A stretch of 64,000 bases of DNA, taken from positions 1,426,001-1,490,000 of the forward strand of contig NC_089282.1 in NCBI RefSeq assembly GCF_963678975.1, given 5' to 3'. Source of the stretch: Dysidea avara (taxonomy: Eukaryota > Porifera > Demospongiae > Dictyoceratida > Dysideidae). A model generated the notes under the pieces. It saw only the letters and a list, made by a program, of their open reading frames with translations, was not told the origin of the DNA and ran no database searches. Positions 1,732-30,029 of the stretch are shown here, in pieces; position 1 is the stretch's first letter; every line of letters starts with the position of its first letter. The translations under genes were made by a program, and so were the position numbers.

Positions 1732-1925
1732 GTCCTAAGGGAGACCACCTCAGTGCTCAAGGGTTTATACATGACATGTTCATGAGAGGAATCCCTCCAG
1801 AAAAAAGGGCTCAGATCTTCACCCACTTTACTTGTGTCACTAATACTCAGAATATTAAGATGATCTTTCAGACTGTAAAGAATACGATCACAGAAGGATA
1901 CACCTCTGATATATTGGAGTACTGA
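1732..1925 (+). CDS. Galpha 3'-terminal exon, copy 1
   Basis: This is the last coding exon of a heterotrimeric G-protein alpha subunit. It follows an acceptor (attgtag at 1725-1731), opens in phase 1 (G|GT CCT, Gly-Pro) and reads 63 codons to TGA at 1923-1925. It covers the end of the Ras-like domain: the alpha-4/beta-6 stretch (SAQGFIHDMFMRGIPPE), the guanine-contacting TCAT loop and the alpha-5 helix that docks into receptors. The loop here is HFTCVTNT instead of the usual HFTCATDT, and the C-terminus is DILEY. A change at the TCAT alanine would be expected to alter GDP binding. The rest of the gene is not in view. It is the most divergent intact copy. Confidence 0.85.
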
Positions 1926-3354
1926 GGTGTTCATGATCAGTGTAACAGAATGACATAAACATTTATTGCTTGTTATTTCCAAGTTATGAGCAGCATCTTC
2001 AGTAGCTACTGTATTTAGTAGTATGAATAGGCGTATAAATGAATGACCCAAAATATGGAATCTTTGCTAGCAACTTAAGTAGTTCTTGCTTATAATTATG
2101 TCTATGAATGCATGTATCATCAGAGTTGAGATAAACACTTTCGTAACCAAGTTATATATTACATTAACATATCTTGTAACAACTGTCCTAGATTACAATA
2201 GTTATACAATTGCTAATAGCCATGCGTTACAAACCAAAATTCTGCACCATATTCACTACAGCCAAATTAAGCAGACACATTCCATGCTCTGTACGCCATG
2301 ATTCAGGCTGTGAAACAGACAGAATTTTAATTGAAACTGAGCTGAAGTAGCTACTTTGCTTTTTGCTTTTGGGGAAGTGCATAGCCATAAGGCATACCTG
2401 AGTGGAACAATCATACGAACATGTTACAAAAGTTAACAAACAAGCATAGGAAAGTTAACATAATTAACCACTAGTTACGTTTACAAAAGTAACTGGACAA
2501 CATAACTGTAACTAAGTTATACATGGGATATAAGTAACGAGATATAAGTAACGAGTAACTAGTGACTATGGTTGTAGCTACCCCAACTGTGTATACCAAT
2601 ACGGTTTAACGCTTTTCTTTAGCATCACATTTAATGCAAATAGTCAATAATTATGTAGCTATACCTATGAAATGTATTGTGTCCATGTGAAGTAGTTCAT
2701 GTAATGATTCAATTCTGGATAGTGACTCAGCTTTTAAAGTTGTTTGGTTTAGAGCACAGCGGCATTTGAAAGACGTGTTTAAAGTCATACATATGACATT
2801 TCTCCAGTAGAAAATTTGAAATTGTTTGCAATATATGGTGTTAGAGTCAATGTCGAACCATTAGAATTAATGCAGCACTCAAAGTTACCCCATGCAAGAA
2901 GAAATATTGTCCTTCATCTTCAAGAAGAAATATCTTCAGAGTATATTCCCTTGTAAGTAGATCCGCAGTTTAAATGCATATTGAAAAACTAAATTATTAC
3001 AGTGTTTCCAGTTTTTACTAAATTATTGATCTGTTGTAGTGCGGATTCTTTGCACATTTTGCAAATTGGCCAAAAATTTTGTCCTCAAAATATCTAGTCT
3101 TATAGTATACACTGTTAACTACATGATGGTGCTAACTGTACTAAAAGTATAGTTGGGATTTTGTATTGCAAGCGTTTGATCAAGCCTTTTATACGTGTTA
3201 ACTCACAGTGTTGCTTCTCCTTGTAAGTGATGATTGTACAGTTATTGCAATTGCAATTGCTTGCAGTGTCTGCCAAGTTTTAGTCAGCTCAAATTGTGAT
3301 GTGATCATGTAACATTGTTGGTTGTTCCAGTCTGTCATTTATTTCCTCCTGTAG
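1926..3354. other. Spacer between Galpha exons 1 and 2
   Basis: About 1.4 kb that would be intron or 3' flank. It contains short AT-rich repeats around 2460-2570 that resemble the interior of the MITE at 3678-4184. It also holds one open exon-like segment (2808-2952, listed separately). Nothing else was recognised. Confidence 0.4.
2808..2952 (+). CDS. Unrecognised exon-like open segment
   Basis: The segment begins after a pyrimidine-containing acceptor (tttctccag, ending 2807) and ends at a consensus donor (GTAAGT at 2953). Between them one frame is open for 47 codons, entering in phase 1 and leaving in phase 2. The peptide contains GVRVNVEPLELMQHSK and HLQEEISSEYIP, and I do not recognise the family. 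Upstream in another frame is a second short open stretch (KDVFKVIHMTF). It could be an exon of a gene interleaved with the Galpha array, a decayed exon, or chance. Confidence 0.3.
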
Positions 3355-3548
3355 GTCCAAAACAAGATTTCATCAGTGCTCAAGTGTTTACGCGTGATAT
3401 GTTCATGAGAGGAATTCCTCCAGAGAGAGTTGGCCAGTTCTTCCCTCACTTCACTTGTGCTACAGATACTCACAATGTTAAGAAGGTCTTTGAAGATGCG
3501 AAGTCTGCCATCGTGGCGAAGTACATGATGACAACTGGCACTGTGTGA
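3355..3548 (+). CDS. Galpha 3'-terminal exon, copy 2
   Basis: The acceptor is cctcctgtag ending at 3354. The exon opens in phase 1 and runs 63 codons to TGA. Motifs in order are GPKQDFISAQVF, DMFMRGIPPERVGQFFP, HFTCATDTHN (intact TCAT loop) and the alpha-5 helix ending TTGTV. With copies 5 and 7 it forms a subgroup with FF or FY before HFTC and a KVGQ- or KAHQ-like segment. It shares with the other copies a short 3' flank after the stop (…CTGGACA…), so the duplicated unit included flanking DNA. Confidence 0.87.
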
Positions 3549-3677
3549 CTCAGAACAGTTGCAGAACTGGACATATTAATAGTTGCAGTTTATTTTATTG
3601 GTTATTAGTCTTAAGTTAAGAGTGGCACTTTGGGTATTCATGGTTATACGTATGTAACAGGAATCCTGTTCTGTTAC

Positions 3678-4184
3678 CAGTGTTGGGTAAGTTACTTTGT
3701 AAAAGTAACTAGTTACATATTACATATTACTTACAACAGAACTATTTAGTTACAGTTACATATTACCCATAAAATAAAGTAACTGTAATAATATTACATA
3801 TTATATTACTTTGTGTCCACAGCCTTAAGCTGTCACGTGTGTAACTACCACCTTATCACGTGACATGATTGCGTTGTTGGACAATGTGCAAATCTTGGTT
3901 ATAAGTAAGAAGCTAGTGAATGAGCTTCATTCAGTAGGCCTCGTTACTTCGTTGTGGTTAGGCGTTACTCAGAGGATTACTAACGAGATCAGTAACTTCG
4001 TCACTTTTAGTAATAATATTACGTCATATTAGACTTGTTACAGTAATTATATTACTTAGGTAACGCGTTACGTTTGTAAGTAAAGTATCTTGCGTTATAT
4101 TACCTGTTTTCATAGCGTATTTCGTTATATTACTTTGTTACCACAAAAGTAATAATATTACGTAACGCGTTACTCCCAACACTG
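3678..4184. mobile_element. hAT-type MITE with 8-bp target duplication
   Basis: The terminal inverted repeats are CAGTGTTGGG at the left and CCCAACACTG at the right. The element is bounded by an exact 8-bp duplication, TCTGTTAC (3670-3677 and 4185-4192). Its 507 bp interior is built of GTTAC/GTAAC-rich repeats and has no coding capacity. It contains two CACGTG palindromes (3834-3839 and 3857-3862). The perfect duplication and clear ends suggest a fairly young insertion. Confidence 0.88.
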
Positions 4185-4192
4185 TCTGTTAC

Positions 4193-6979
4193 AATACATG
4201 ATATGAACAGCCAATGTTAATACTACCATGTGTGAAGTGTATAGCTTGTGTATACGTCCTGGATAGTGGTCCAGTTTAATTGCAGAACAAGAGAATTATA
4301 TATGTTGGACATACAAGAGGCTAAGTGAACAACTGAATGATAATCAATGATTTCATAGTGAATGGGTGGTTACCATTATGACAATGTATTACAAAACATA
4401 TCAGCTGTTCTCAACATGAAAATATTACTGTAAAGCATGTGTGCACATGCACTATCTTAATGTACACAACTGATATCCATTTTCTGCTGCTCCAGTAGAA
4501 CGTTCATTTTGACAGTCACTTTCAGCCCATGCATGCATCCATCTTGGAGTACTTACCCTACCATATACAGGTTACCTGCACGATATACTCCTAGCTCATG
4601 TGTGTCCAGCATTGCAATACTTTTATTGCATGTGAGCACTAGTATTACTACCTTCATACTAGTATCCCTATAATAGTATCCTTTCCATATTCTGTCTATT
4701 GACAAGTGATGTAATACACACTGTACACCGTAGGTGTAGAAATTCACATATTTATAAATTGGAACTCAAAGAATGTAACATATGTACTACACAATAGCGC
4801 AAATTTCTGCACTTAAGCAGATACCACAAGACAGTTCTAAAGCTGAAAAGTTGCCATCTGAATTGCATCTATATCGCAAGGTTTTGAGAAGAGGATGGAG
4901 GTTAGGAATGCTATAAAATTAGTGGAACAATTTAATGTATTGTATAATGAGGGTATAGTTACTCACATGTATGCTTGCATGCTGCTAGTAATATTTTGCT
5001 ATCGTGCAATAGTACCTTTTCTATTGTGCACTTTATATATCCTTCTTGTAATGTTTTTGTAGCAGTTAACAGCTAAACAAAGCTACAAACCATTGTACTC
5101 TTGCTGTTAAGTAGTATAGGGGTGTAACAAATATAAGAAAAATTGAGAATCAAATTAACAAACAAACAAACAATTACATTACATTCTTTAACATTTTTTC
5201 TGTATAACTACATATCTAAGCAAAACAAATTTGTACTGATTACTACAACTTATGTTATTTTTTGTACATGTAATTGTTTAGTATACATTAAATGGCTATA
5301 GTTACTATGAATATAACTTAGGTAACAAATAATGAGCCTTCATAGTAAAAGTGAAAATGTCCGTCTGTCTTTCTGTATACATTTCATTGATTTCCAATGA
5401 TTTTCTTGCCAATTGCTGCACAGATCAAGGCTTTTTTTTGCCAATCAGTGTACCCATCATCTGAGACTATCAATGAGGTATCTAATGACAGCTGCAAGGG
5501 TAGAGGGGAAAACTTGTTAACTAAAACATGAACTACACTACATTCCTGTCAAGACCACAGCATAGCATCTCCAATATCTGGCATCCAACCACTCAAGTAT
5601 TATATATAGTATGTACTGTTACTACTTTATAGTACAATACTTGTCTAACAGTAGGAACAAGAAACAACCACAACAACTCAGAGATACAAACAAACTGAAA
5701 CATGCTGGTCCAAAAATTTCTGATATGTAATTCTAATAGGTTAAACAAAGTACGTTATTTTTATGAATAACTGACAAACGTTTGTCAGCGTTGGCTATTG
5801 CAGGTTTGAAATTCAGATTGCTTGTAATTGGTCCCAAGGCAATTGCTTTTCGCTTACCGTTGGACATGCTGCAGATTTATCTTTATCCATTTTGTGTCCA
5901 GTTTCATTTTACTGCTGCCACAAAAGCATTGATTCATGGTAGAGCCTTGATTGCTTCATTCATTGACTATCACATGATCATAATTTTGTCTCCTATGCAA
6001 AAGTGAGTGTAATAATTGTAGACACACTTGTTTAATGTTAGAACTGGTAAAAGAATTAAAACTAAAAATTTGAAATGAAGTAGCGAAGTAATATTTGACC
6101 CAAATATAATAATTCTCTATGTTACCAGTTAAATACAAAGTGTTGAAATGCTTGTAGTGCTGAAATAACAATATCTTGTCAGCACAGGCCATAATAGTAC
6201 ACACTCTATTGTAGGCATGCAGTTTATTTACTAGACTGACAAGGTTAATACTGATTTTGTCAGTCTAATACTGATTTATCCAGTGGACCATGGGCAGCCC
6301 ATGGTAAATTACAAAAATCATTTTGAAACAATATTTACAGTAATAAATCAAATACATAGTTTAGCTAAAAATTGTTTCAAGTGACAGAGAGAGGTTTGGT
6401 TGTTTCAACACATAGGTTATTTTATCGTTCTGGGGAAGCTGTATTGATATGAGTTGGTTAATGTATTCATTGCTATCAGCAAGCTAAAAGATTGCTATAG
6501 ATGTTAGATGTGTACCATTATGAGGCTTTAGCTAGTGCTGCCATGTGCTGGCTTCAATGCTGATAATTTGTATACTAGCATTTGTAATTCTTCACTAATT
6601 ATTTCCTACACTTAACATACTAGAAAAAAAAAAATTAATCTGTTTATTTCACATTAGTCACTGTTTGTATGTGTTGACCAGCTGAGCAAAAACCTGACCT
6701 GTTTGCTGAAACTGAGATAGTGACAAAATAATGTTTACTACATCCACTGAGTGCTTAATATTATTAATACATTGATCCTTCAGCTTTTCAGGTCTCAGTT
6801 TGCACAAAACTTTTGTTATGATTTGATGATGTATAGCATAGGAGTTATGGGTCACTGGGTTGGGATAGATACACAACTGTCTGTGAAGATGAACTAATGT
6901 GTATCTATGAAATGGTGGAAACAATACACGTTGAGCTATTACATGAAATCAGTGTAGGAACTAATTATAGCATTATAGG
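4193..6979. other. Non-coding stretch with no recognised gene
   Basis: AT-rich DNA in the long gap between Galpha copies 2 and 3. The reading frames present are short and lack family motifs or flanking splice sites. A small AAAC-rich patch lies near 5160-5175. Confidence 0.4.
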
Positions 6980-7505
6980 CAGTGCTCGAAACAATTTTTT
7001 AGAATTGTCCGGATGAGTTTCCTGACAATTGTAGCTTTGTTAGGAAACTTAGAATTTTGTACGGAAGATGGTTGTAGTGGTTTAGTACTTATATAGGGTT
7101 AAGAACAATACACAGTTAATTTGGCACTATACAATGCATTGAAGTTTGCAAGTTACATCAAATTTTATTATTCCTACAATTTCTATGCAGGTACCCAGTG
7201 AATTGATGCTGTTTTATAGCTACTGTATCAAGAGTCCAGGCTCATACTTCAATTCACAGTGCAGGATCATCACCATGGAGTAACAGAATATACAATGCTG
7301 CTTATGCAGTGTCATACTTGTTATATATTTGTTCCAGCAGCTACCTCCACATTATCATATTTTTCTTTAATGATGATTCAAATTTATGTATACAGGGTAC
7401 ATAAAAACAGTTTACTATAAAACCACCATGCAGCTACACGTCACCATTGTACAACAAGTAACAAAATACAAAAGAGTCTACAATCAATGTAATCATGTAT
7501 AAATG

Positions 7506-9536
7506 TTATAAACAAACCACATCAGACTCAGAGTCTTGTAAATCAGCTTCTGCCTCTGATACATTTTCCTCAACAACATCTCCTGAAACCCACTGTAGCC
7601 ATTCATCTAGGGAGAAGACTTCTGCTTCTGATTCTTCACCAGACATTGTGGTGCTGGCTGATGAGTGGGGGTCTGTCCTACATCTTGGTCTCCTCCTTTC
7701 TTTTTGGGTGACCCTTCTGACCTTGTCATTGGACCATAATCTAATGGCTGTCTCTGGATTCCACTGAGAGAAAACTGGAGCTTCAACGTTGATGCGAAGG
7801 AGTCTATCCAATGTTTCTTCTTTTAAACAATTCCGGCGATTGCTTTTGATGAATTTAAGTGAAGAAAATATTCTCTCTAACCGTCCATTTGCCATGGGAA
7901 GGCAGAAAAGCAATTCAACCAAAGCTAGCACATTGTTCCACTTCTTAGCATCAGCACAATTGAACAATTTCCACCACACTGCTTTGTAGTCATCTTGGAC
8001 CAAGTTCAAATAACTTGTGGCATATTCAACCATATCATCCCACTCTTCTTCTATCAATGACAAATCAATCTGTGCATTTTCAAGGGGTGCTCTGAAGTGC
8101 TCACACAAATTATCAATAGCTGGACAGCCAAACCTTGCATCTTCCTGGCGCTGCCATCCATTGGTGGCTAATATTGTAATAGCATTTGACAGTAGATCTA
8201 TGTGCTCAGTTTGGAGACGATCCTTCAGGCAAGCTTCAATTCCGCCTGCCCAGCCAACCCAATTGGACTTCACATATTCTTTGCCAGCTTCATATTGTAA
8301 AACCTTAACTCCTTGGTACTTCCTGTCTTCAGTAATTCTGGCTAGAACCTTTCTTACAGTAGGCAGACTTTCAAACTCTATCCCTTTCAACTTGTCAATG
8401 TTCTTCTTGGTTTTCATTATTTGTTCAATAGCCCGAACAATGCATAATTCATCTTCCTGAAGTACTTTGCACAAAATGCTTGCTGGTTTAAGAAGATCAG
8501 CAAAACAGGCACATCCAAGTAGGACCTTAAAATTCTTCCACTTCTTTACATAGCCACACAACTTTGCTTTGTCAGTACTTTTAACTTTTGGATTTTCAAT
8601 AAGTGACAAAAGGTGGCTAATGTATGCTCCAAAACGATCAATAATCCGATTCAGTGCGGCTACTTTGTGTGTTATAAATCTTGTGCCACTTGCACGAAGG
8701 GGACGTGTACCACCCTCTATGGGCATTTCTGTAGAATCTAAGCACCATTTCAATTCAGAAACTATTTCCTCTAATTCTCTACATTTCTTTGGTGATCTTT
8801 CGTAGACGTAATAAACTTGCAACAAAAATTCATCGATAAAGCCAAAGAAAGTGCCACTAAGTGCATCCTTTATTGAAAGCTCCAAACGGTGAGCAAGGCA
8901 CCAAAAACATATTACCCATGGAATTTCCCTCTTTAAAAGTGCTGCCAAGCCATTCTTTTTGCCTAAATTAACACTTGTGCCATCACAACCTACACCTATT
9001 GTTTTAGCTTTCCAGCTGTCTTCAATACCCATGTACTTCATAGCCTTTTCAAAGCACTGATACAAACCTTCTGCAGTGCTAAGAGTTGGTTGCTGCACAC
9101 AAAAAAACTTATTAACAACTTGCACCTTACCATCAGCTGTAGCAGTGCTGGACTCCAGATACATTACTAAAAACAGCTCTTCCTCTACATTAGCGACATC
9201 TGTGCTCGAGTCAACTTGAAAACTGTAAAATCGGCTTCTGGAAAGTGCTTGCACAAGCTTTTCTTTTTCTTCAAGGACAATAAATTCTACAAAATTACTA
9301 CACGCATGATCATTTCTGTATGTAGTCCCAACATCCACACCGTGCCGCTCTTGTAGGTCACACAGTGCTTTCATTTTTGTGAATGCTAAGCCCTCCTTAG
9401 CAATAAAATACGCAATGTCAAATTTTTTCTTTGTTCGTTCGAGTGTTGCTTTGTCCATTGAACAACTTGCAAAGGATTGAACGATAGGAGTACTGCTAAT
9501 GGCCACTGTTCCCAATGACTTCTTATGGAGCCGCAT
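7506..9536 (-). CDS. hAT transposase (ZNF862/KIAA1586-like), main exon
   Basis: This is an uninterrupted 676-codon frame. It reads as an RNase-H-fold hAT transposase: DSSTDV at residues 109-114, CDGTSVNLG at 184-192, CLAHRLELSIKDA at about 213-225, and a C-terminal hAT dimerisation region at about 537-583 (GRLERIFSSLKFIKSNRR). The tail after 600 is acidic. The N-terminal BED-type zinc finger usual in the family is absent: the frame starts abruptly at MRLHKKS, next to the nested insertion at 9542. Upstream codons in frame up to the insertion are also open, so the ATG at 9536 may not be the native start. The absence of stops over 2 kb suggests recent activity or domestication. Confidence 0.88.
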   Translation of the reverse strand: MRLHKKSLGTVAISSTPIVQSFASCSMDKATLERTKKKFDIAYFIAKEGLAFTKMKALCDLQERHGVDVGTTYRNDHACSNFVEFIVLEEKEKLVQALSRSRFYSFQVDSSTDVANVEEELFLVMYLESSTATADGKVQVVNKFFCVQQPTLSTAEGLYQCFEKAMKYMGIEDSWKAKTIGVGCDGTSVNLGKKNGLAALLKREIPWVICFWCLAHRLELSIKDALSGTFFGFIDEFLLQVYYVYERSPKKCRELEEIVSELKWCLDSTEMPIEGGTRPLRASGTRFITHKVAALNRIIDRFGAYISHLLSLIENPKVKSTDKAKLCGYVKKWKNFKVLLGCACFADLLKPASILCKVLQEDELCIVRAIEQIMKTKKNIDKLKGIEFESLPTVRKVLARITEDRKYQGVKVLQYEAGKEYVKSNWVGWAGGIEACLKDRLQTEHIDLLSNAITILATNGWQRQEDARFGCPAIDNLCEHFRAPLENAQIDLSLIEEEWDDMVEYATSYLNLVQDDYKAVWWKLFNCADAKKWNNVLALVELLFCLPMANGRLERIFSSLKFIKSNRRNCLKEETLDRLLRINVEAPVFSQWNPETAIRLWSNDKVRRVTQKERRRPRCRTDPHSSASTTMSGEESEAEVFSLDEWLQWVSGDVVEENVSEAEADLQDSESDVVCL

Positions 9537-10389
9537 GGCATCATAGATAATACACGTAATAAAGGATTGGCAACGCGCCTATTAAACCTGTAGTGACGTC
9601 ACGTACAATCCTCGTTACGGTTCGTCATCCAGTTAACGCGCCCTCTCACCCGTTGCTAAACGCACTAGGCTGCTTCATTCCTTGTACCGTAGCAGGGTAC
9701 TACTGAGTAAAGACGTAAAGCTTAGTTCAAACGAACGTACAACTACTAAGGTGAGTATCTGATGTAATAAAATAGTGAAACGCACTGTCAGTTTTAACCC
9801 AGCGCAAGATAAGGCTCATTGCTTCATGGCTTTTCACAGTTTTGGAGTTTTAACAAGGACACTAAAGTGCTTTTTTCCGAACAATATATAAAGAATTAAT
9901 CGTAACCATTAGTGGAGTGTCATGCTTTGTTTTGTGTAGGCGTACCACTTACCCAAACTATGGTTTGAAGCTGTTTCACTGTGCTGGGTTTTGGAGTTTT
10001 GTCGTGGTACCATGAGGAGAAGGATCAAGTTACTATTCAGCACAAGAGAGCTCAATGTTATGGTGGTGTTATGCAAATATGCATGAGCTCAAATTCAGAT
10101 GTGGCATTGGCCATCAAAGTATGTGAAAATGGGATATAAAAGGTGTAGTGGAACAGAGCATGTTATCAACATGAAGGAGCTGTTGGTGGTAAAGAGTAGT
10201 GTATCGTGAACTTCAAGCTTAGACAGGGAATGATGAGCATATCTATAAATGTAGCAGCTCACAGCAAATGCCATCCACTGGATATCAAGTGACGTCCACA
10301 AAAATAGACATTCCCTTCAAGTGCTGGAAACTAAGTCTATAGCTAGTTCATTTTGTTATAATAACTGATATAAACAATGGACACATATT

Positions 10390-10586
10390 ATACTAGTTAT
10401 CTGAACTCCTAGGCACCACCTGCAGCTCAGATACCTGATAACTAAAGTTTGTACAAAATCTCTTTACACAATGTTAGTCAATTGCAAAGTATGAAAAATA
10501 ACTTCTCTAATAGAACACTCGCTACTCTAATAGAGTATTCAATTTTGACATACAGGTTTGGATAACGGAGATTCCACTGTAGAGCA
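10390..10586 (-). repeat. pogo/Tigger-like MITE fragment
   Basis: On the minus strand the end reads CAGTGGAATCTCCGTTATCC, a pogo-like terminus. The interior (…AGTTATCTGAACTCC…) resembles the repeat at 30294-30480. It contains two copies of the dispersed CTCTAATAGA motif. The left boundary is approximate. Confidence 0.5.
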
Positions 10587-11621
10587 TTTTCCAGTAGGTC
10601 CCACATCCCAGTGTATAGCAGTCAAGGTAATTATGACTGTGTTATATTCATTGAATTCAAGCACTAGTAGTAGTATTCATATCAGATAAAACAGCAGCAA
10701 CATCACAACCCTCAGAGTCATAAATGACATGGGATTCTCACACAATCTCATAAAGAAATCTTAAATTCTGAACTCTGGAATCACACAAAATCAGTGAGGC
10801 TTCCAGGTCCAGGATGGCTTGGAGTTAGCTAGATAAATGACTGATGGATGTTCCATTAATTGATCTGTGCAAAGCACACCTGCATCTCCATTGAGGCTGT
10901 CAACTACTCCATTTTGTGCAATAATAGAAGTGTGAAATCCAAGTAAAACCTAGATAAAGATTTATATTATTGAAATTCTAACAAACACTTGAAATCCCTA
11001 AGCATTACACAATTTAGAGATGTTGGTTGAGAGGTCTGTCACTCATTGAAATTTTGCTGATCAAAGTTCAGAAATTTGTACTTTTTTCAGATACTTTCCA
11101 CATACCTAAAACAACAGTCATTGCGAGATCTTTCATGTAAATATGGCCCCCTTGGTATGGTTTCCTACAAACAATTAGCCCCAGATATAAAAGGAAACCT
11201 CACCATTGAAATTTGCTTACTGCACTATTTAGTTGTTCACTTTACATGGTCATAGCACACAGTAACAGTTGTCAACAGCACATGCATTATTAAGATAGCT
11301 GAATTTCGAGGATTTTCTGAGTGACTGACCCCTGGCATTGGTGACCCTAGTCACCCATGCAATACGACACACATGTGAACAACACGACAAAAACAGAATG
11401 GAGTGTTCAGTGAACTCTTGTCCTCCCACCACACACATACACACAGCCTAAGCCGGCAGTTGTACCTATTGCCACCCAAAAAACCAACACTGGGATGCCT
11501 GTGCACCACTCAGGCACTATAGTCTTGTGCAGAATCCTCCTGGGACTATATAGATCTCACAGGGAGAGGTCGCAGAACCCAAAGTTCCACAACGACCACT
11601 AAGTTGAGACAAGGACAGTGA

Positions 11622-11851
11622 GGCAGCATAGCCAAGTGGCTAGAGCACTAGCCTGGTAATTGAAAGGTTCCAGGTTTTGCAAATTTAGTGTTTCCTTGAG
11701 CAAGAAACTTTGTTCACATTGCTCCAGCTGTATACAGTTGGGGACCTGGTGAGCTGTCACAGCAACATCAATGGGTACCTGGCGTTTACTGGGGAAGCAA
11801 ATTCCCAATATACATACAATATCCATCTCGAGCTCTCCATTAAAAAAAAAA
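11622..11851 (+). repeat. tRNA-derived SINE
   Basis: A box A match (TAGCCAAGTGG, 11629-11639) and a degenerate box B (GGTTCCAGGTT, about 11667) are spaced as in a tRNA head. They are followed by a tail region with CTTGAGCAAGAAACTTT and GGGTACCTGGCG, phrases typical of widespread invertebrate and fish SINE bodies, and an A-rich end near 11842-11851. It does not fold as a complete tRNA gene by eye. Confidence 0.65.
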
Positions 11852-12301
11852 CATTGCCACTGGATACATAAGGTATTTGCTGCTGAAGCCCTAAACTAGC
11901 ATACAATCGGCTTAAATCCTGGTTTACATAGTCCATCCTTATTACGACCTACTGTAGCTGGCTACCAGGAGCGCATCGAATCCTTGATAGAATTCGATGC
12001 TCATGTGAAACGGCAAGACTCCACGACTCACCAAGTTGCTGCCGCGCCCAAAATCCGCTGGTTGATAGCTCACTACGATCGATACTGGTTACATGAGTAG
12101 TTTCTCTCTATTACTGGATAGCGAAATAACAGCACTGGGAACGATAAAGCGGAGCATTCATGTCGGGTAGCCGTATCTATGACAATAGACGCGCATAAGT
12201 TACATGATAAGTCACGCGACCGTAACGAGGATTGTCGAATAGTTGCTATGCGCGTTGCCAATCCTTTATTACGTGTATTATCTATGGTGAAACAGACTCA
12301 C

Positions 12302-12465
12302 CATCGGCATTTGTTTCGAAGTCTAATAGTTTCGAGTGATTTATCATTATCCCGTATCCACTTTTGGACTGTTTTCTTTGAAGCAGTAGACTTCTTAGTC
12401 GCGGGAGCTAGTGACGAAGAAGGACGCTTACGACTGCCTTGGCTACCCGAGGAGCGGCCCGCCAT
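12302..12465 (-). CDS. hAT transposase, upstream exon
   Basis: An ATG at 12465 opens a frame whose product contains a Lys/Ser-rich head and KKTVQKWIRDNDKSLET, a start typical of KIAA1586/ZNF862-like hAT proteins. A GTGAGT donor follows at 12301. In this frame a stop lies just past the donor. The alternative frame at the same place reads DFETNADGESV, which looks more like the family, so either the exon is spliced here or one base has shifted. The CxxC part of the BED finger was not found between this exon and the main exon. TCACGTGC lies just upstream (12472-12479). Confidence 0.5.
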
Positions 12466-12842
12466 AGCATATCACGTGCACTATTAATTTAGAACCAGTA
12501 TAACTGATTAGTATATTTAGCGCCCTAAGAATTATTTACCTCGACTGCAGCTGAGAATGCAGGAGAAGGACGGGGGGAAGACGCACGATCACGTTGATAG
12601 CTGATAAAGGTAAATGTCATAAGTATAAATGTGAATATTCATGCAAAAAGATTGTCCGGATACTTTTTTCCGGATACTTAGTGCTTTACCCGGAAACGTC
12701 ACAAATTACCCGGAAATCCGCCGATTGCCGAACGTTATTTCGAGCACTGTAATAATACATGCACTGCACATGTTGCTTTAATTATCTGTTGTTTTAGTGA
12801 AGCATGTTATACTAGTGAAAAGATACCTTATGACAAATGTAA

Positions 12843-13760
12843 TTTGTTTGTTTGTTTGTTTGTTAATGCTTTATAGTACACACATACAAGCATGAGCTTA
12901 GGTACACACACAGATACAAGAATTGACAATACACATGGTGTACTAAAGGTCTGTAGGCTTGTTCCTACAGCCAAAAGTAGTAATTATAAAATAATAATAA
13001 AAGAACACATGATAAATTGTCTAAGACAGTGTGTAGTTAATCGAGAAATGATCAGTAACACACCGACTACAGGGACAGTGGTAGTGCAGTGTATGAGGGT
13101 TGAGGGGGTCAAAGTTATGAATGAAATGATTCCAGAAGTGGGACTTGACTCTGTTCCTGATAGTATCAATAGACAGATTAACGTCAATTAATGGAAGCGC
13201 ATTCCATAAGCGACAGATCCTTACAAAGTAAAAGTGTCGTTGCTTGTTAGTGGTGGAGGGATTGTGATGTAATTTGAAGCCTCCTGATCTGGCACTGGTA
13301 GAGAAGGAAATGAAATGGTGAATGTTGAAACTACTGGTTGGATTTTTGATAGATTTGATGAAAAACATGATGTCTGAAAGTTCAAAGGTGTACATTAATG
13401 GGAGAAGCTCTAGTTTGAGAAGTCTAGTTTTATAGTCGGAAATGTAATCGTTCAAAATATACTTTGTGGCTCGTCTCTGAAGATGTTCTAGGTTACTGAT
13501 GTCTTTCACTAAATATGGACGCCAGATAGGGGAGCAGTACATGAGCTGAGACCTGATTAGAGATACGTATAGCTTAACTTTAGTCAGTGGTGGTATAGAT
13601 GAACTGAAGGTTCTTCGTACAAGACCCAATGTCTTATAAACTTTACTTAAAATAATGTCATGATGAGTTTTCCATTCAAGATTTAGTATTTTCTGTACTA
13701 AGCTATGCGGTCCATGCATACTTACCAATGTACTTATAAATCAATGGTCTGTATCCCATT
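12843..13760 (-). mobile_element. 5'-truncated LINE (CR1/L2-type), 3' end
   Basis: On the minus strand a 235-codon frame (13728 to 13021) gives the C-terminal part of a non-LTR reverse transcriptase: KTLGLVRRTF, LYVSLIRSQLMYCSPIW, LEHLQRRATKYIL, RICRLWNALP, and a C-terminal Cys pair (CPCSRC). The element ends in a (CAAA)n tail at 12843-12863, as in CR1/L2-like elements. The palm and endonuclease are missing, so it is a dead-on-arrival 5' truncation. Confidence 0.8.
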
Positions 13761-14839: not shown

Positions 14840-15027
14840 GTCCTAAAGGAAACCACCTCAGTGCTCAAGAGTTTATACATAGCATGTTCATGAGAGGAAT
14901 CCCTCCAGAGATAAGGGATCGCTGTTACTCCCACTTCACTTGTGCTACTGATACTGAGAATATCAAGAAAGTTTTTGATGATGTGAGGACCACCATTCTG
15001 ACAGAGAATGTCAGTGATGGATTGTAA
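14840..15027 (+). CDS. Galpha 3'-terminal exon, copy 3
   Basis: The acceptor is ttaccacctctag ending at 14839. The exon enters in phase 1 and has 61 codons to TAA, the shortest tail of the set. Motifs are GPKGNHLSAQEFIHSMF, RGIPPEIRDRCYS, HFTCATDTENIKKVF (intact TCAT loop) and the terminal residues ENVSDGL. It belongs to the IPPEIRDRCY subgroup with copies 4, 6 and 8. Two AATAAA signals follow at 15066-15071 and 15093-15098, so it has the clearest polyadenylation context of the eight. Confidence 0.88.
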
Positions 15028-16575: not shown

Positions 16576-16781
16576 GTCCTAAGGGAGACCATCTCAGTGC
16601 TCGGGAGTTTATACACGACATGTTCATGAGAGGAATTCCTCCTGAGATGAAGGATCGTTGCTTTTTCCACTTCACTTGTGCCACTGACACTGAGAATATC
16701 AAGAGAGTCTTTGAGGATGTGAGGAAGGTTATCATGGCAAACAATGTCGGCGATGGAGTAGGAACTCTAGAAACAGCCTAG
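16576..16781 (+). CDS. Galpha 3'-terminal exon, copy 4
   Basis: The acceptor is ttactacttgtag ending at 16575. The phase 1 exon has 67 codons to TAG. Motifs are GPKGDHLSAREFIHDMF, RGIPPEMKDRCFF, HFTCATDTENIKRVF (intact loop), then an extended tail NNVGDGVGTLETA. It has the longest C-terminus of the group, running several residues past the end of copy 3. The body is nearly identical to copies 3 and 6. Confidence 0.88.
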
Positions 16782-21284
<4,503 letters not shown>

Positions 21285-21428
21285 TGCGTTGTTCACGTGC
21301 GGTGATTTAACAAGCGCGATTATTTTGTCACGTGAGGACGTCTAGTTGCCATGGCGCTAGTATTATCGTAAGAAAACCAGCCGCTTTTGCCGAGCCTACA
21401 GCAGAAACAGCCGTGGATGAGGTAAGTA
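21285..21428 (+). promoter_or_regulatory. Promoter-like GC-rich patch with two donor sites
   Basis: A locally CpG-rich segment in AT-rich DNA. It has CCAAT near 21275, TCACGTGC at 21293-21300 and TCACGTGA at 21328-21335. An ATGG lies just downstream (about 21351). Two splice-donor-like sequences on the + strand follow: GTAAGA near 21369 and GTAAGT near 21422. It resembles the promoter regions of the genes on the right of the window. It could drive an alternative or non-coding first exon inside the Galpha array. The peptide after the ATG is too short to identify. Confidence 0.35.
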
Positions 21429-21460
21429 ATCTGAGTGTAATGTGAAATAGAGTCTAAAGC

Positions 21461-21599
21461 AGTTATACGGGCACAATGTGGAGTCTATGAAATTTATAAA
21501 CCCTCAGGCCCTTAGTAGCGCCCTCGCTTCGCTCGTGCGCTACAGCCCGGGCCTTCGGGTTTATAAATTTCATAGACTCCACATTGTGCCCGTATAACT
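21461..21599. repeat. Foldback with perfect 43-bp arms
   Basis: The left arm 21461-21503 and the right arm 21557-21599 are exact reverse complements (starting AGTTATACGGGCACAATGTG). The 53-bp loop is GC-rich and itself palindromic (GTAGCGC … GCGCTAC around CTCGCTTCGCTCG). Perfect arms imply recent origin or correction between the arms. Confidence 0.9.
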
Positions 21600-21832
21600 A
21601 TTATATAAACAGCTGATAGTAATTATAAATTGCCCTTAGAAGTCGTGTTGTTATATGAACTGAGTGACAAGTCAGGCTTTGTAGCTGCTTATAGCACTTG
21701 CCTATAGCTAATTTGCAAGATGTCTAGAATCAAGTCACCACCCCGCCTATATAGGCTTTTCTCATTAAATATATATTCATGTCACAAAGTGAAGATTCTG
21801 ACTCCCTGGTGCACGGGTTTAACCTACCAGTA

Positions 21833-22022
21833 GTACTGATCCCCAGTGGGGTATATATAGTACTGATCCCTGGTGGGGTATATATAGTACTGATCCCTGG
21901 TGGGGTATATATAGTACTGATCCCCGGTGGGGTATATATAGTACTGATCCCTGGTGGGGTATATATAGTACTGATCCCTGGTGGGGTATATATAGTACTG
22001 ATCCCTGGTGGGGTATATATAG
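21833..22022 (+). repeat. 27-bp minisatellite, 7 copies
   Basis: Seven tandem copies of a 27-bp unit containing GTACTGATCCCTGGTGGGGT and a TATATATA end. Copies differ mainly in the CCAG/CTGG/CCGG core. Because 27 is a multiple of 3, both strands stay open and give repeat peptides (VLIPGGVYI on +). There are no unique spacers, so it is not a CRISPR-like array. It ends 110 bp before Galpha exon 5. Confidence 0.95.
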
Positions 22023-22132
22023 TTCAAGGAAAACAATACAAAGAGGCAAAATAATAGTACAATAACTCTAATATAACTGTGTATGTTGCTATCGGATGGA
22101 TAACCGTTTGATGGTTTTATTTCTACCTGTAG

Positions 22133-22326
22133 GTCCTAAGGGAGATCGCTTCAGTGCTCAAGTGTTTATGCATAACATGTTCATGGGAGGAATTCCTCCA
22201 GAGAAAGTTGGCCAGTTCTTCCCTCACTTCACTTGTGCTACAGTTACTCAGAATATTAAGAAGGTCTTTGATGGTGTTAGGAACACCATCATGGTGGAGT
22301 ACATGACTGGCCTTGGAACAGTGTAA
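22133..22326 (+). CDS. Galpha 3'-terminal exon, copy 5
   Basis: The acceptor is ttctacctgtag ending at 22132. The phase 1 exon has 63 codons to TAA. Motifs are GPKGDRFSAQVFMHNMF, GGIPPEKVGQFFP, HFTCATVTQNIKKVF and the tail EYMTGLGTV. The loop keeps TCAT but the following Asp is Val, and the usual MRGIPPE is MGGIPPE. It is closest to copy 2, including the shared GTV end, so these two are probably the products of one duplication. Confidence 0.87.
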
Positions 22327-22499
22327 CTAAATTGGACAGGACAGGATTAACATTTCATATTATATTATGCTACTTGTTATTTCAAAATTAAGAGTAGAAT
22401 CAATTGTATATCGCAGTGAAGCTATATACTTAAAGGACTTGGTGTTTAATTATCACCTTTGCCAAAAAAGAAGAGTTTATTGCAAACAGCAAATGCAGC

Positions 22500-22870
22500 C
22501 TGGGCCGCCCACAGGGGGGGGGGGGGGGGGGGGGAGGCAACTGGGGCATTTTTCCCCGGGCCCCAGCCTGAAAGGGGCCCCAGGAGGCCCTTGAAGGCCC
22601 CCCGAATACCTGTTTAAAAGGTCGATATACTCTAATAGAACAGTCAGATCTAAATACTCTAATAAAGCAGTCACAGTATTCTTCAGAGGAGCAGTATAGC
22701 AGGCTTATAGATAAGGAGGTATGGTTGGTGATGGGTAGTTAATGTCATTGTCAGCAGGTTGTGACCTTTTTTTTTTTTTTTTTTTTTTTTGGTCTTCAAC
22801 TTACAGCTTGGGTGAAGGGCCCCACTTTAACTCTTTGCCCTGGGCCCCTTAATTTCTCTGGGCGGCCCTG
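22500..22870. mobile_element. hAT-type MITE (GGGCCGCCC ends)
   Basis: The ends read CTGGGCCGCCCA and, mirrored, CAGGGCCGCCCA. They are flanked by an exact 8-bp duplication, AATGCAGC (22492-22499 and 22871-22878). The interior includes a G homopolymer (about 22515-22534), a T homopolymer (about 22768-22790), the dispersed TACTCTAATAGA motif, and a TGACC…GGTCTTCAACTT block shared with the MITE at 28800. Confidence 0.85.
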
Positions 22871-22878
22871 AATGCAGC

Positions 22879-23995
22879 AACTAAACACTAAATGCACAAC
22901 ACTGCTCCTTTGTCCTCTATCAAACAAATAAAAAATTAAACATCACTAGCCAAAATGCCACATCAATAATATTATGCAGGCTGTGTATAAGGCCAATTGT
23001 ATCAAAGTCTTTCACTTGGATAGAGGACAATTATATCACAGCAGTCATAGAATATCTTATTTGATACACTCATACTCCTGCTGTGATATCACTAAGTTGT
23101 ATGACACAAGTATCATACCCTATACCTCAGATAGTAGCTATGCTGTCTAATACAGTTTTGGCATGCTCACATGATTCTTGTAAAATCATTCACTGTATCT
23201 AAGTCAGATAGCAATGTGACTGTTAATTAAATCTGAATAGTGTATGCAATCAAATATACACAAGCAATTACGGCTTATGCTGTTTAATTGTGGGAGGAGT
23301 TCTAAATTCTGGATTTTGCCAATGTAAATTGTGCAAATTTTTTGGGGAGTCTGGGATTTTTTTTTGCATTTGACACGGTTTTAATGTCAATATTCACAGG
23401 TTATCAGTCTTCCATATCCCTAGAAGAATGCAGATTAAAACAAAGAAGTATTGGGGAAATAAATTTGATAGTTCAGTATATATGCTCAATGCAAAAATCA
23501 GTATTATGTTTACAAAACCTACGATGGTTTTCATGGAGTAAATAACTCTCTCAACAACTCTTATTATTGCTGTGTTAGGAATAGCTTATATAACACTGTG
23601 TATATAACATACTCTCTATATACTACAAAGGCAATTACAATAATATGTTTACACATGTATATGTACATGTGATATTGTAAATATTCTGGCAAAGCAATGT
23701 TGACTGTACATGTGAGAATATGACTTTCTGTATACGGCTGTCAGCTACACTTAAAGCCTCTATTTGTACACATTGTTGTTGTCAATGCATATTACAAAAG
23801 TATACGCTAGTTATGTAGCTACACTAAAAGTAGATAGAGCTCTGCCACCCACAATATAAGTATTTGCCTATCCACTTGACCATGCATGATTAATTGTACA
23901 GTTCTGATTACCTAATATGGCATGCAGTACAGCGTATAGTATTTATACACTGTTTGTGTTGCTGATATCTAATGACAGGCTGTTACCACCTCTAG
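22879..23995. other. Non-coding stretch before Galpha exon 6
   Basis: No gene is recognised. A short palindromic run is built of GTACATGT/ACATGTAC-like words near 23645-23710. The last bases carry the ttaccacctctag acceptor context of exon 6. Confidence 0.35.
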
Positions 23996-24192
23996 GACCA
24001 AGGGGAGACCACCTCAGTGCTCAAGGATTTATACATGACATGTTCATGAGAGGAATTCCTCCAGAGATAAGGGATCGCTGTTACTGTCACTTCACTTGTG
24101 CCACTGATACTGAGAATATCATGAGAGTTTTTGATGATGTGAAGAACAATACCTTGTCAAGTCACATTGATGAGTTTAGTGGAACAATGTAA
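23996..24192 (+). CDS. Galpha 3'-terminal exon, copy 6
   Basis: The acceptor is ttaccacctctag ending at 23995. The exon enters in phase 1 as G|GA CCA, so the upstream exon must supply G to keep glycine. It has 64 codons to TAA. Motifs are GPRGDHLSAQGFIHDMF, RGIPPEIRDRCYC, HFTCATDTENIMRVF and the tail SSHIDEFSGTM. The body is nearly the same as copies 3, 4 and 8 but the tail is unrelated. An ATTAAA signal lies near 24243. Confidence 0.88.
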
Positions 24193-25042
24193 CTGAAATA
24201 GACAGTATAGCTATATGGACATTTTATTGCTTTATGCTAAAATTAAACATTATTATATAGTGTTGGCTGCAATATAAAATCCAAAGTTCACTGTGCATGG
24301 ATGGTGATTGTTTCATGTGTATTAAATAGGCAACACAATCAGAAGTTTGCTTTTAACCTCCTTATAAGTACAATTCTATAAATGCATCCCTGCATTAGCC
24401 TTGTAGCTGTACAGAAACACTATAGAGCTCAGTCGATCACTACTACATTAATATGGAATTAGCTCACTTAAAGCTGCTGTCGTTATAGTTGTATACTCAG
24501 AATGACATACTAACGTACGTACATACTTACGAGCTACTGTATAATTTTACCTATGCAATGGAACGTCTTTTAAAGAACTTTCAATCTGACAATGTACATT
24601 TAACTCTTCTATCTATAAAGGACAGATTTTTGAAGTCCCTATAGACCTTTATACCAATACAATTTACCTCTGGAAATATATCATCATGGTCCCAAAGTAT
24701 TTATGTATTATAAAGCCAGAAGTTCCACTGTGTGTAGAAATTCATGCAGTACTTATTGAACTTAAATGATTATTGTATTTAAAGTACTATGCATAACCAA
24801 TTGCAATCATACTATCATGATTGAAACTAAAACTGCATGTACATGTAGGGTTTACTGTTTCAATAAGCTGCAAGTGTATGATATAAACTTTAAATTTCAA
24901 CTTAAAAGTGTATGCCTACAACTGATTGGATATTCAAACCATATAGTTGTTTGTCAGTGCAGTATTAGCAAAAATGTAGAATTTCTGTGTCATTGCAAGA
25001 ACAATGACAATAAAATTGATGATATAATATGGATGTATCCAT
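24193..25042. other. Non-coding stretch after Galpha exon 6
   Basis: AT-rich DNA without recognisable coding exons or element ends. Confidence 0.35.
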
Positions 25043-25647
<605 letters not shown>

Positions 25648-25838
25648 GTCCTAGAGGAGACCATTTCAGTGCCCAAGGGTTTATGTGTGACATGTTCATG
25701 AGAAGAATTCCTCCAGAGAAAGCACATCAGTTCTACCACCACTTTACTTGTGCTACTGATACTCACAACATCAAGAGAGTGTTTGATGATGTGAGGAGCA
25801 CTGTTATGGCGAAGTACTGCTCTAATGTACTGCAGTGA
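25648..25838 (+). CDS. Galpha 3'-terminal exon, copy 7 (altered acceptor)
   Basis: A 62-codon open exon to TGA: GPRGDHFSAQGFMCDMF, RRIPPEKAHQFYH, HFTCATDTHNIKRVF, tail AKYCSNVLQ. At the position of the acceptor every other copy has AG, but here the sequence is cctgtCG. The usual site is therefore lost. An in-frame AG nine bases into the exon (ctagag|GAGACC) would restore phase 1 while dropping three residues. The coding frame and TCAT loop are intact, so the acceptor loss is either recent or compensated by the shifted site. Confidence 0.8.
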
Positions 25839-26805
25839 AATGCAACATGCAGCACTGGACAGAAACTGACAAACTACTGTACTTACATTATTGTATCTTA
25901 TTATATGCAAGTAGCTAAAATGAATGACATCTTATGTATAATTATGCAAACAAAGAGATCTTATACAATATCGATATAAGGGTTTTAGATATTTATATAT
26001 AAATATCTAAAACCCTTAAATCGATTTTATATAGTTGCAGATCCATGGTACCACAACTGCTTTCCTCGTGTAAATAGGGAGGCTTGTCTTCATGTGTCTC
26101 CCACTGTGTGGTAGTACAGTTGTATAGCAATGTAGCCATGGGTGGCTGCAGTGCAGTGAGGCCAGCTCACTGTGTACCTTGAAATCCCACACAATTTGCC
26201 TATTGGTAACAAGGCCATTGCTTCAGTGACCATCAGCAAAAAAATTTTATATAATTATACATTTGTATAATCCTTAAACCAAATGTGATCATGTGAGCCA
26301 CCAATATGTTATGACATTAATAGGTAGTAACTATATAGTAGGATACATGCGTCACCGACATATTGTACGGTTTTGTTAATCATGCATATTGAAGGATGGA
26401 AGAACTGCATGTCTAATAAGCTTAGTACCTTCAGCAGACCGGCTTAAGTAATACACTAAATGTAGTAATCTCATATATTAACGAAATTAGCGTGTACAAA
26501 ATTAGCGATTTTATTAGTTCATGAATTGATGCAACCATTTTAGTGTATTTAAAAAACAACACTAAAATCGCTAAATTTAGTCAAGTCAGCTTATTAAGGT
26601 AATCGATTGCAACACTATGTCCATGTTGTAAAGCTAATTATAATTGCAAACATTTATACATAATGAGTACAAGGAAAATAAGAATTTTAAGTTTGATTAG
26701 GGATCACAGCCATAAAAATAACGAAACAAGTAAGAAATACTAGTGGACATTTAATCCTTAATTCATAGTCTATACCCATGACTGAATTAGAGATTAAATA
26801 TACTA
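25839..26805. other. Non-coding stretch with palindromes
   Basis: It contains a perfect 40-bp palindrome (25978-26017, half-site AAGGGTTTTAGATATTTATA). It also holds a looser hairpin at about 26500-26580 with arms containing TTAGCGATTTTA and TAAAATCGCTAAATTT. No gene was recognised. Confidence 0.55.
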
Positions 26806-27043
26806 CACTGCTTGAAGTTTCTTAGTTTACTAGAGTGGTATGTCCCCCAGTATATGGAACAGTTAATTGTTTGTTATTTTAGTAATTTTTCAGTAAACCC
26901 GCATCCACTGATGTTTTACTGAGAGTTTAAAACTTAGTAAAACAATTATGTTCCATATACTTAAAGTTACTGACATTTTACTATCAGTGTAACTACAGTA
27001 AAGCAGCTTAACAAATTAGTAAACTAAGAACCTTCAAGCAGTG
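26806..27043. mobile_element. MITE, PIF/Harbinger-like (CTA duplication)
   Basis: The terminal inverted repeats are about 25 bp (CACTGCTTGAAG…CTTAGTTTACTA and its mirror). They are flanked by CTA at 26803-26805 and 27044-27046, the 3-bp duplication typical of PIF/Harbinger elements. It is 238 bp long and non-coding. Confidence 0.65.
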
Positions 27044-27954
27044 CTACCGGTAGTAGCTATATCTGCAGGTGTAGGTGACATCCCTTAATTGTTTCACTAT
27101 AGCTAGTATACTTTTTATGGCTATGGTCCTCTAATTTTTCCTTCCACTTGTTTACTTTTTTGTATGTATATAATATTATTATGACTGACTGGTGAACCAG
27201 TGCACAGTGGCATAGGTACCATTGAGGCAACCGAGGTAGTAATTGAGTTTGAATGAAGAGAATTTTGTTCATGCTACTCTAATCTCTAATAGAGCAATCA
27301 GGGAGGTTTTTATAATGTCTGGCTACACCACTGAGTGCAGAAAAGAATGGCACTAACTTAAATGTTTTCATCTGAATGTGTGCCCCAACTATCAATTACT
27401 GCAAAAGTGAAGAAGCCATTACAGCTATGCTCAGCCAGTTATTACAAATGAAGAACATTATACAAGAAACACCTCTGCAATCAATCCAGTCACCAGACAA
27501 TTTCTAATACAAATGTAAGGAAGCCATCATACACTAACTACCTTGAATCATATAATATACAAAATCACAGACTTACCTTTGTGCTCCATTTCTTCTCACT
27601 GACAGTACTATATATGTACGGTTGATACCAAAAGGCACCTGTCAGACTGAAGTGATGTGTAACAGTGAAAAAATCAAGTCTGTAGCCTTGGGTGTTATTG
27701 AGTTATGCTTGTCTGAAGACATCAAGTAGGCAGGTCATTTGGTATTAAAAAATGTTTTAAAAATCTGTAGCAACTTACTGGAAGTGTTTTTGGCCACTCA
27801 AAAGACACTTTTGGGCTTGGTTCTACCTAACCAAAACTGCCAAGGTGCTATGATGAAGGTATATTGTGTGGTTAGGTTCTGGTTAATTCTTTTGTGAGAA
27901 AGTGCAACCTCTGTGATCTCTAATATACAGTACTGCCATGATAAGCACAATTGG
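27044..27954. other. Non-coding stretch with no recognised gene
   Basis: Only short frames without motifs are present. The dispersed CTCTAATAGAGCA motif occurs near 27275-27295. Confidence 0.35.
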
Positions 27955-28293
27955 TATTAGTCCAGTGCCTAAGCCACAAAACCGTCCACTTTTTGATAAA
28001 AGTACCAAATTTCTTATGGGGTTTGTAGCACGTGTACTAAGTGATTTTAGAAGGGAGGCATGTAAAAAGTCCTTTGGAATTCTATATTTTGGGCCTTGAC
28101 AACAAAACTATCTGTTTACATGGAAAACAATCAAGTTTAAAGGCTGGATCTAGTATTAGACCAGTACAAAGCCTGTAGCTGCGACATGATAGCCCATTAA
28201 AATGTCACATGAAACAAATTGTTTTCTCAGCCTGGTGGTAAACAAAACGACTGAAAACACTATTTGTATTAAAGTTTTGCATTTCCAATACAC

Positions 28294-28692
28294 CAGGGGC
28301 GGAGGAAGTAGTTGATATGAGGGGGGGCTGGGCTGACCCAGACTTAGTCTCTGGTTTGGTGGTATGGTAAAACCAAAAAAAAAAGGAAAAAAGGTCGCAA
28401 CCAGCTGACAATAGCTGCCCACCTCACCAGCTACGCATTCATAGCTGATAAACTACATAAAAATCCTTACATAGCTCGCTACACACTGCTCTAATACTGT
28501 AACTGCTTTATTAGAGTGACTGCTCTATTAGAGTACCTCGATCTTTATCGCGGTTTCAGCCCCACTCCAAGAAGGATAACTTCGACGTGGTATCATTCTG
28601 AGGGGGGGGCTGGGCCCCCCTTCAGCAGACCGAGGGGGGGCTTTAGCCCCTAGCCCCCCCCCCCCCCCCTCCCGACCTTTCTGCCGCCTATG
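28294..28692. mobile_element. hAT-type MITE in the left arm of the inverted repeat
   Basis: It is bounded by an exact 8-bp duplication, CAATACAC (28286-28293 and 28693-28700). The ends are CAGGGGCGGAGGAAG and, mirrored, CATAGGCGGCAGAAAG. The interior has G- and C-homopolymers and two inverted copies of the CTCTAATAGAG motif. It has no match in the right arm, so it inserted after the inverted repeat formed. Confidence 0.82.
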
Positions 28693-28799
28693 CAATACAC
28701 ACAGCTCTGTCATATCATGCACAAGGATCATCCTGATGTGTATCGTTTCTTTATCTAAGGTGTATAACAAAAGTTATCGAATGATGAAGATTTAATTGG

Positions 28800-29077
28800 C
28801 AGTGGCGGATCCAGGGGGGCACGTGTCCCCCCTCCATCCTTTTCAATAAAAATTGCATACAAGATCGAGATACTCTAATAGAGCAGTCACTCTAATAAGC
28901 AGTCACTCTAATGTCACAGTGTTCATGAGGCAGTGTAGCTTAACTATGAAGCTATAAACAAGGATCTTTATGTAAATACATTTGGTAAAGGGCAACCATT
29001 GTTGCTGTGACCTTTTTTTTTGGTCTTCAACTTTTCAGCAAAGTGCACTCCCTTTCCAAACTCTGGATCCGCCCCTG
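28800..29077. mobile_element. MITE with GGCGGATCCAG ends
   Basis: The ends are CAGTGGCGGATCCAG and, mirrored, CAGGGGCGGATCCAG. They are flanked by ATTGG on both sides (28795-28799 and 29078-29082). The interior carries TACTCTAATAGAGCAGTCA and the TGACC…GGTCTTCAACTT block found in the MITE at 22500. A similar terminus (TGGATCCACCCCTGG) appears near 36199-36213. Confidence 0.8.
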
Positions 29078-29836
29078 ATTGGTTACAGGTAGACATAAAT
29101 TATTGAAATCCCTCTGTATATGCATAAATCAAGCAATTATCCTTGCAATGTTGATCAAGTCTAATTAGTATTGCAGAAATATCTTGTTGTTTGGTAGAAT
29201 ATTCTGATATTCCAATGATTTTATGTCCACCTGTAACCAATTAAAACTCCATCATTCGGTAACTTTTGTTATACACCTTCGATAAAGAAACGATACATAT
29301 CAGGATGATCCTTGTGCATGATATGACAGAACTAAGTGCATTGGAAATGCAAAACATTAATAAAACCCCTTGAAAATAGCATTTTCAGTCATTTTGTTTA
29401 CTGCCAGGCTGAGAAAACAATGTTTCATGTGGCATTTTAATGGGCCATCATGTCACAGCTGCAGGCTTTGTACTGGTCTAATACTAGATCCAGCCTTTAA
29501 ACTTGATTGTTTTCCATGTAAACAAGTAGTTTTATTGTCATGGTCCAAAAAATAGAGTTCCAAAGGACTTTTTACATGCCCCCCCTTCTAAAATCATTTA
29601 GTGCACATGCTACAAACCCCATAATAAATTTGATGCTTTTATCAAAAAGTGAACGATTATCTCAATTAGAGGGTCTTAGGCACTGCACTATATAGTCTAA
29701 GAAGTAATCTGTATCATAAGCCTTTATGCCTATACTATACATATAGCTGTGTAAATGGCAAGTCAACTGCTTAACACAAATTCTTAAATAAATAAGTTGA
29801 GCTGTTTGTGTAATCATCATTTATTACCACCTGTAG

Positions 29837-30029
29837 GACCTAAAGGAGACCATCTCAGTGCCCAAGGATTTATACATGACATGTTCATGAGAGGAATTCC
29901 TCCAGAGATAAGGGATCGCTGTTACTCCCACTTCACTTGTGCTACAGATACTGGAATATCAAGAAGATATTTGAGAATGTGAAGAAAACCATCATCACTG
30001 ACCACACCACTGAGGTATATGGAGTATAA
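29837..30029 (+). pseudogene. Galpha 3'-terminal exon, copy 8 (frameshifted)
   Basis: The acceptor ttaccacctgtag (ending 29836) and the first part are intact: GPKGDHLSAQGFIHDMF, RGIPPEIRDRCYS, HFTCATDT. One base is missing relative to the other copies just after the Thr codon of CATDT (gatactg-gaat, about 29949-29953). The frame then runs to an early stop. The other frame beyond that point still reads NIKKIFENVKK and ends EVYGV before TAA at 30027-30029, so decay is recent or the base is a sequence error. Confidence 0.8.

Follow-up and report, generated by a model that had tools for sequence, protein, structure and literature searches.

How many receptor-contact ends can a single G-alpha gene choose from? 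This question is raised by a stretch of 64,000 nt (from here on, the window; NC_089282.1, positions 1426001 to 1490000) in the 550.8 Mb genome of Dysidea avara, a demosponge of the order Dictyoceratida. One type of G-alpha 3'-terminal exon occurs there in eight plus-strand copies (E1 to E8), which a first-pass annotation had listed from the letters alone and which were found again at the same positions by pattern search and tblastn. The reading favored here, with a probability of roughly three in four, is that the window forms the 3' part of one D. avara Gq-type gene whose alternative last exons vary the receptor-contact end of the protein. Positions of E1-E8 are given in window coordinates, and those of all other exons of the gene in coordinates of the whole contig (C11; 27,734,874 bases).

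Six of the eight window exons are intact: (i) E1 (1732..1925; acceptor TAG/GT), which ends in TSDILEY before its stop; (ii) E2 (3355..3548), ending in MMTTGTV; (iii) E3 (14840..15027), ending in NVSDGL; (iv) E4 (16576..16781), ending in DGVGTLETA; (v) E5 (22133..22326), ending in MTGLGTV; and (vi) E6 (23996..24192), ending in DEFSGTM. The seventh, E7 (25648..25838), has an open frame ending in CSNVLQ and carries CG at the place of the acceptor AG. Finally, E8 (29837..29982) lacks one base after TCATDT and, in consequence, its frame stops at 29982, while its similarity to the other copies runs on in another frame to approximately 30017-30020. All eight copies are entered in the same phase (an upstream G followed by GT or GA), seven are preceded by AG (the exception being E7), and seven (E1-E7) are open to a stop, in agreement with what had been claimed from the sequence. 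The claim that they encode the loop HFTCATDT holds literally for six of them, but E1 reads HFTCVTNT and E5 reads HFTCATVT. Matches of the seven open copies to the Pfam G-alpha profile are located only at its end, between positions 290 and 333 of 333, with E-values from 4.5e-5 to 8e-9; all of them lie under the whole-protein cut-off of the family, as expected of single exons.

The first-pass annotation had further proposed that a single G-alpha body lies to the left of the window, with a phase-1 donor ending in G. A Pfam search of the sponge's own genome returned 55 G-alpha matches, several of them on C11 to the left of the window, and exons were then mapped in C11:1376001-1426000 by tblastn and splice-site reading. 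One complete Gq-type body was found approximately 40 kb upstream of the window, on the same strand as the array. It consists of five common exons (1385830-1385947, 1386139-1386323, 1386616-1386773, 1387090-1387218 and 1387688-1387823) together with a pair of alternatives for the penultimate exon, 6A (1394342-1394501) and 6B (1404578-1404737), whose NKxD segments read NKKD and NKTD, respectively. At the protein level, 6A and 6B are 81% identical, and both end in CAG/GTAC, carrying one base of the following codon (the phase-1 G donor). Donors are GT in all seven body exons and acceptors are AG in the six that have one (exons 2-5, 6A and 6B). The array itself reaches beyond the window, with three further plus-strand last exons: T1 (start at 1394823; intact), which stands upstream of 6B, T2 (start at 1405680; intact) and T3 (start at 1423184), which has a frameshift at a run of A.

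The count comes to 11 terminal exons behind a single body, all on its strand and in a phase compatible with its donors. Eight of the 11 are homologous last exons with acceptor, common entry phase and stop (T1, T2 and E1-E6), at least two being needed for an alternative-last-exon gene, and three are broken. When spliced to each of the eight intact ends, the body gives products of 357-363 aa in one open frame, which carry GTGESGKST, DVGGQR, NKKD (6A) or NKTD (6B) and the TCAT motif (TCVT in E1). These intact motifs, together with best matches to Gq and G11 proteins, place the gene in the Gq class.

No other body was recognised near the array, as had been claimed for the window. Exact patterns for the P-loop, switch I, DVGGQ, NKKD and NKQD (NKTD was not among them) gave no hit on either strand of the window, and tblastn queries with the human proteins GNAQ and GNAI1 gave no convincing body match among the matches listed. 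The sponge's own body exons, used as tblastn queries at E<=1, gave a single weak match in the window, on the opposite strand (E 0.81). The possibility that every copy terminates a complete G-alpha gene of its own, which would resemble the tandem whole-gene G-alpha copies reported, for instance, in Placozoa and vertebrates (PMC5896119), can practically be dismissed and is refuted for the window, where no copy was found with a body of its own; between 1388 and 1490 kb of C11, no G-alpha body exon was found besides 6A and 6B. A separate G-alpha gene does lie on the minus strand at C11:1384929-1381842, head to head with the body.

One product of the gene is already annotated. A protein search with the body returned P0045, named 'guanine nucleotide-binding protein G(q) subunit alpha-like isoform X1 [Dysidea avara]', whose contig has the same length as C11 and which equals exons 1-5 + 6B + T2 letter for letter. 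Against PDB, P0045 matches 27 sequences at E<=1e-100, the best of them G(q), all named as G(q), as G(11)/alpha-11, or as Gi1-labelled fusions. The entry represents a cluster of five member sequences on one contig. When positions are simply counted, predicted products of 6B are 90.0-91.1% identical to P0045 with E1, E2, E3, E4, E6 or E7 as their end and 89.4% identical with E5, and those ended by T1 are 85.2% (6B) or 82.5% (6A) identical. It might be suggested from these values that 6B products with E1-E4, E6 and E7 could be among the other members of the P0045 cluster. As to the earlier proposal that the body can be spliced to any of these ends, P0045 bears it out in part by joining the body to T2, a member of the row, but 'any' is too strong, because E7 lacks the acceptor AG and both E8 and T3 are frameshifted; these three exons are probably dead.

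The sequence around the exons indicates what has been kept. In a comparison running from -120 to +229 of the acceptor, E1-E7 are alike from approximately -20 to +170 and at background level outside. In 10-base bins, mean pairwise identity stays at 0.22-0.40 from -120 to -21, rises to 0.51 and 0.76 over the 20 bases that precede the exon, lies at 0.49-0.94 between 0 and +169, and drops to 0.22-0.35 from +170 to +229. Since identity is confined to the exon plus some 20 bases of 3' splice site, the array is not a product of chance. Gapped BLAST of longer flanks (approximately 1.6 kb before and 1.8 kb after) likewise recovered mainly exon and splice site, with short stray pieces elsewhere. In 20 of the 21 pairs of E1-E7, dN/dS is 0.17-0.56, with dS of 0.17-1.39 over 54 codons. 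Transduction by mobile elements was considered as an origin of the copies and found no support, the similarity of the flanks being nearly limited to exon and splice site.

According to the proposed mechanism, (i) the five common exons encode most of the GTPase body, to which 6A or 6B adds the NKxD segment; (ii) transcription from the body would run through the whole row; (iii) the phase-1 donor of 6B (or 6A) would be spliced to a single last exon with a stop of its own; and (iv) each last exon supplies alpha4, beta6, the TCAT loop and alpha5. The resulting proteins would have the nucleotide switch in common and differ mainly at the C-terminal tip of alpha5 and, in consequence, a common Gq output could be reached from different receptors. 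E1-E6 would all be in use, the choice among them would be regulated, and the products may be selective for different receptors. A bolder form of this proposal, in which one Gq switch is offered at least eight receptor plugs, depending on the last exon chosen and perhaps differing between cell types, is put at slightly less than an even chance. If it were true, an animal without nerves would set its receptor wiring through RNA processing instead of through its number of G-alpha genes. The count of G-alpha genes is a natural yardstick for the number of receptor wirings, and a gene with at least eight working alpha5 ends would mean that gene counts in D. avara understate the wiring options. Laboratory work commonly exchanges the alpha5 end to redirect G-alpha coupling; with that many working ends, the row would represent a natural swap experiment on that same end.

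Several points weigh against the reading of the row as one gene with alternative last exons. Three of the 11 last exons are broken (E7, E8 and T3), E2 and E5 show a dN/dS of 1.09, and the match between E5 and E6 extends past the stop to approximately +240 in gapped BLAST. The joining of 6B to E1-E6 needs introns of approximately 23-45 kb that cross transposon remnants. Polyadenylation signals (AATAAA or ATTAAA) are not enriched within 1 kb of the stops (17 in 11 kb vs 1.36 per kb regionally). The sole product read from the locus is 6B+T2 (P0045), none having been read with a window exon; among the 120 matches listed there was no second entry legibly labelled D. avara, and the T1-ended product, expected in a cluster of its own at 82.5-85.2% identity, was not found among the matches listed either. 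Finally, the agreement between cores and tails on other contigs, described below, is weak for the 11 E-type rows taken alone (P 0.029).

As for the means of choosing an exon, no exact 8-mer is common to at least six of the 11 flanks (-500..-26 and +210..+700), a test that does not reach diverged or longer-range elements; no shared intronic selector was found in it. Inside the row, the frames recognised are transposon remnants, and no other host gene was recognised by eye among open frames of at least 100 codons between 1388 and 1458.5 kb, in a check that covered the first 60 letters of each frame, from which genes with short exons could escape, and in which Pfam was applied to the hAT-like frame alone.

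The main receptor contact of G-alpha is the end of alpha5, and it is there that the copies differ most. Mean protein identity among E1-E7 is 0.72 over residues 1-20, 0.57 over 21-30, 0.75 over 31-40 and 0.54 over 41-54, and it falls to 0.09 in the last 11 residues. This 9% identity, together with tips whose length beyond HFTCATD, or the motif in its place, was counted by eye as 24 to 30 residues, is what would be expected if the last exons were used, as in the favored reading, with their receptor contact relaxed, so that the products were decoys, receptor-independent G-alphas or proteins differing in stability only. This explanation, which overlaps the favored one, is considered rather unlikely, and the tails of relatives on other contigs speak against it.

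A search with the E1-E7 alignment returned 41 proteins, sorted by reading their letters: the window's own exons account for four and E-type proteins for another 12, besides the E-type fragment P0042; P0018 resembles T2, P0020 and P0021 resemble T1, and the remaining 21 carry different G-alpha ends. Two of the E-type proteins, P0013 and P0016, each list a contig of 16,221 bases and probably share it. When the sponge's own genome was searched with E6, 24 matches were obtained, and all 10 with E <1e-9 fall within this row, so the E-type relatives probably come from other genomes or haplotypes. The window's own exons in this set (P0003, P0004, P0005 and P0007) are on a contig of 1,529,322 bases, different from C11; that contig may belong to another assembly of this sponge.

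The tails of 11 of the 13 E-type rows (the truncated sequences P0019 and P0042 were omitted) score 366 in sum against their best window tails, vs 100 +- 14 for shuffled letters (maximum of 153 in 2000). Fully relaxed tips would not keep such a likeness. Core partners and tail partners agree over 15 rows (P 5e-5), the best tail being the best core in just seven of the 15. In the main tree, which took in 18 of the 41 proteins, excluded P0015 and had few columns (good support for six of its 29 inner branches), T1 groups with P0021 and P0155, the latter from Amphimedon (96/91), T2 with P0018 and P0048 (85/80), E2 with P0016 (92/85), E7 and T3 with P0013 and P0014 (88/83), and E3 and E4 with P0010, P0012 and P0017 (87/87). 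A pairing of E1 with P0006 (98/85), obtained in an earlier tree that omitted the window's own four proteins and the fragment P0042, was not recovered in the main one. In turn, P0048 (342 aa, on a contig of 2067 bases) is related to the body and shares 76% identity with the query; its P-loop and NKxD motifs are altered and its end has diverged, and it is perhaps a retrocopy or a non-switching G-alpha.

Less probable still is the explanation that only T1, T2 and perhaps a few more exons are used, the window exons being relics of exon duplication repeated in place that resemble each other through recent duplication or gene conversion and not through use. The three broken exons, the pair E2/E5 with no sign of constraint, the nearly unrelated last 11 residues and the lone 6B+T2 product in the database would all fit it, and changes counted by codon position (30/46/58) are only mildly uneven (naive P 0.012). 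Nevertheless, E1-E6 retain frame, acceptor and stop while the introns that flank them are at background identity, dN/dS does not exceed 0.56 in 20 of the 21 pairs, and similar tails recur in exons on other contigs.

Other features of the window were also recorded. Within the array, a minus-strand frame (7506-9578) that stays open for 690 codons and includes a hAT-family dimerisation domain represents a transposase-like gene between E2 and E3. The array also contains GT repeated 152.5 times with 100% matches (19119-19423) and a 27-base unit repeated in tandem 7.1 times (21831-22023). Non-LTR reverse-transcriptase-like pieces were seen by eye on the minus strand (13021-13740 and 33725-34285), as were a kinase-like open frame (59906-62381, plus strand) and, beside it, a Kelch-like one (62990-63949, minus strand). 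Scans of the window with Rfam (gathering threshold) and for tRNAs gave none, and no relative was confirmed in viral and prokaryote collections. A region search with a composite query returned four candidates, two of them generic full-length proteins.

Alternative 3' ends of one G-alpha gene are known from mammalian GNAO1 (GoA/GoB), which has two ends only; the D. avara gene has eleven. Dscam arrays are long tandem rows of alternative exons, internal and chosen by means of paired RNA elements. The D. avara row likewise offers a long tandem series of alternatives to one exon, but its exons are terminal instead of internal, as a mutually exclusive array of the Dscam type would have them, each open exon brings its own stop, and no exact 8-mer was found in common in the flanks examined.

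Within the sponge's own genome, tblastn with human GNAS revealed two tandem G-alpha-s-type genes at C8:11389001-11439000. The second (11403038-11431639) has, like the Gq-type row, one body and apparently three last exons (matches at 11424829, 11426526 and 11431499), but its tips are conserved (LRQYELL, LRQYELV and LRQYELL). At C3:14246053-14268229, a diverged G-alpha-s-like locus combines an altered P-loop with two matches to last exons, of which one contains a stop.

Two further published systems are close to the row. In the insect G-alpha-q gene (Lygus, Anopheles and Drosophila), the exon pairs B/B', C/C' and D/D' give five variants (PMC4553527); as in D. avara, one Gq body is combined with duplicated homologous exons through alternative splicing, but each insect exon has two versions and the D. 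avara row has eleven. In amphioxus preGNAS, the final two exons, which encode alpha5, are duplicated, and a change in receptor coupling has been proposed (PMC5896119); these are two G-alpha-s copies with 80-81% aa identity, whereas D. avara has eleven Gq-type copies with nearly unrelated tips. In the literature searched, with most subscription papers outside its coverage, no title or abstract start describes a row of this size. A term search did not find 'G protein' or 'isoform' in the main text of the D. avara genome paper (PMC12909245), and in the Oopsacas genome paper (PMC10280926) term matches were confined to the reference list. Hence, since paired alternative G-alpha exons are known and no row of this size appears in the literature searched, what is new in the D. 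avara row is its scale and the diversity of its tips.

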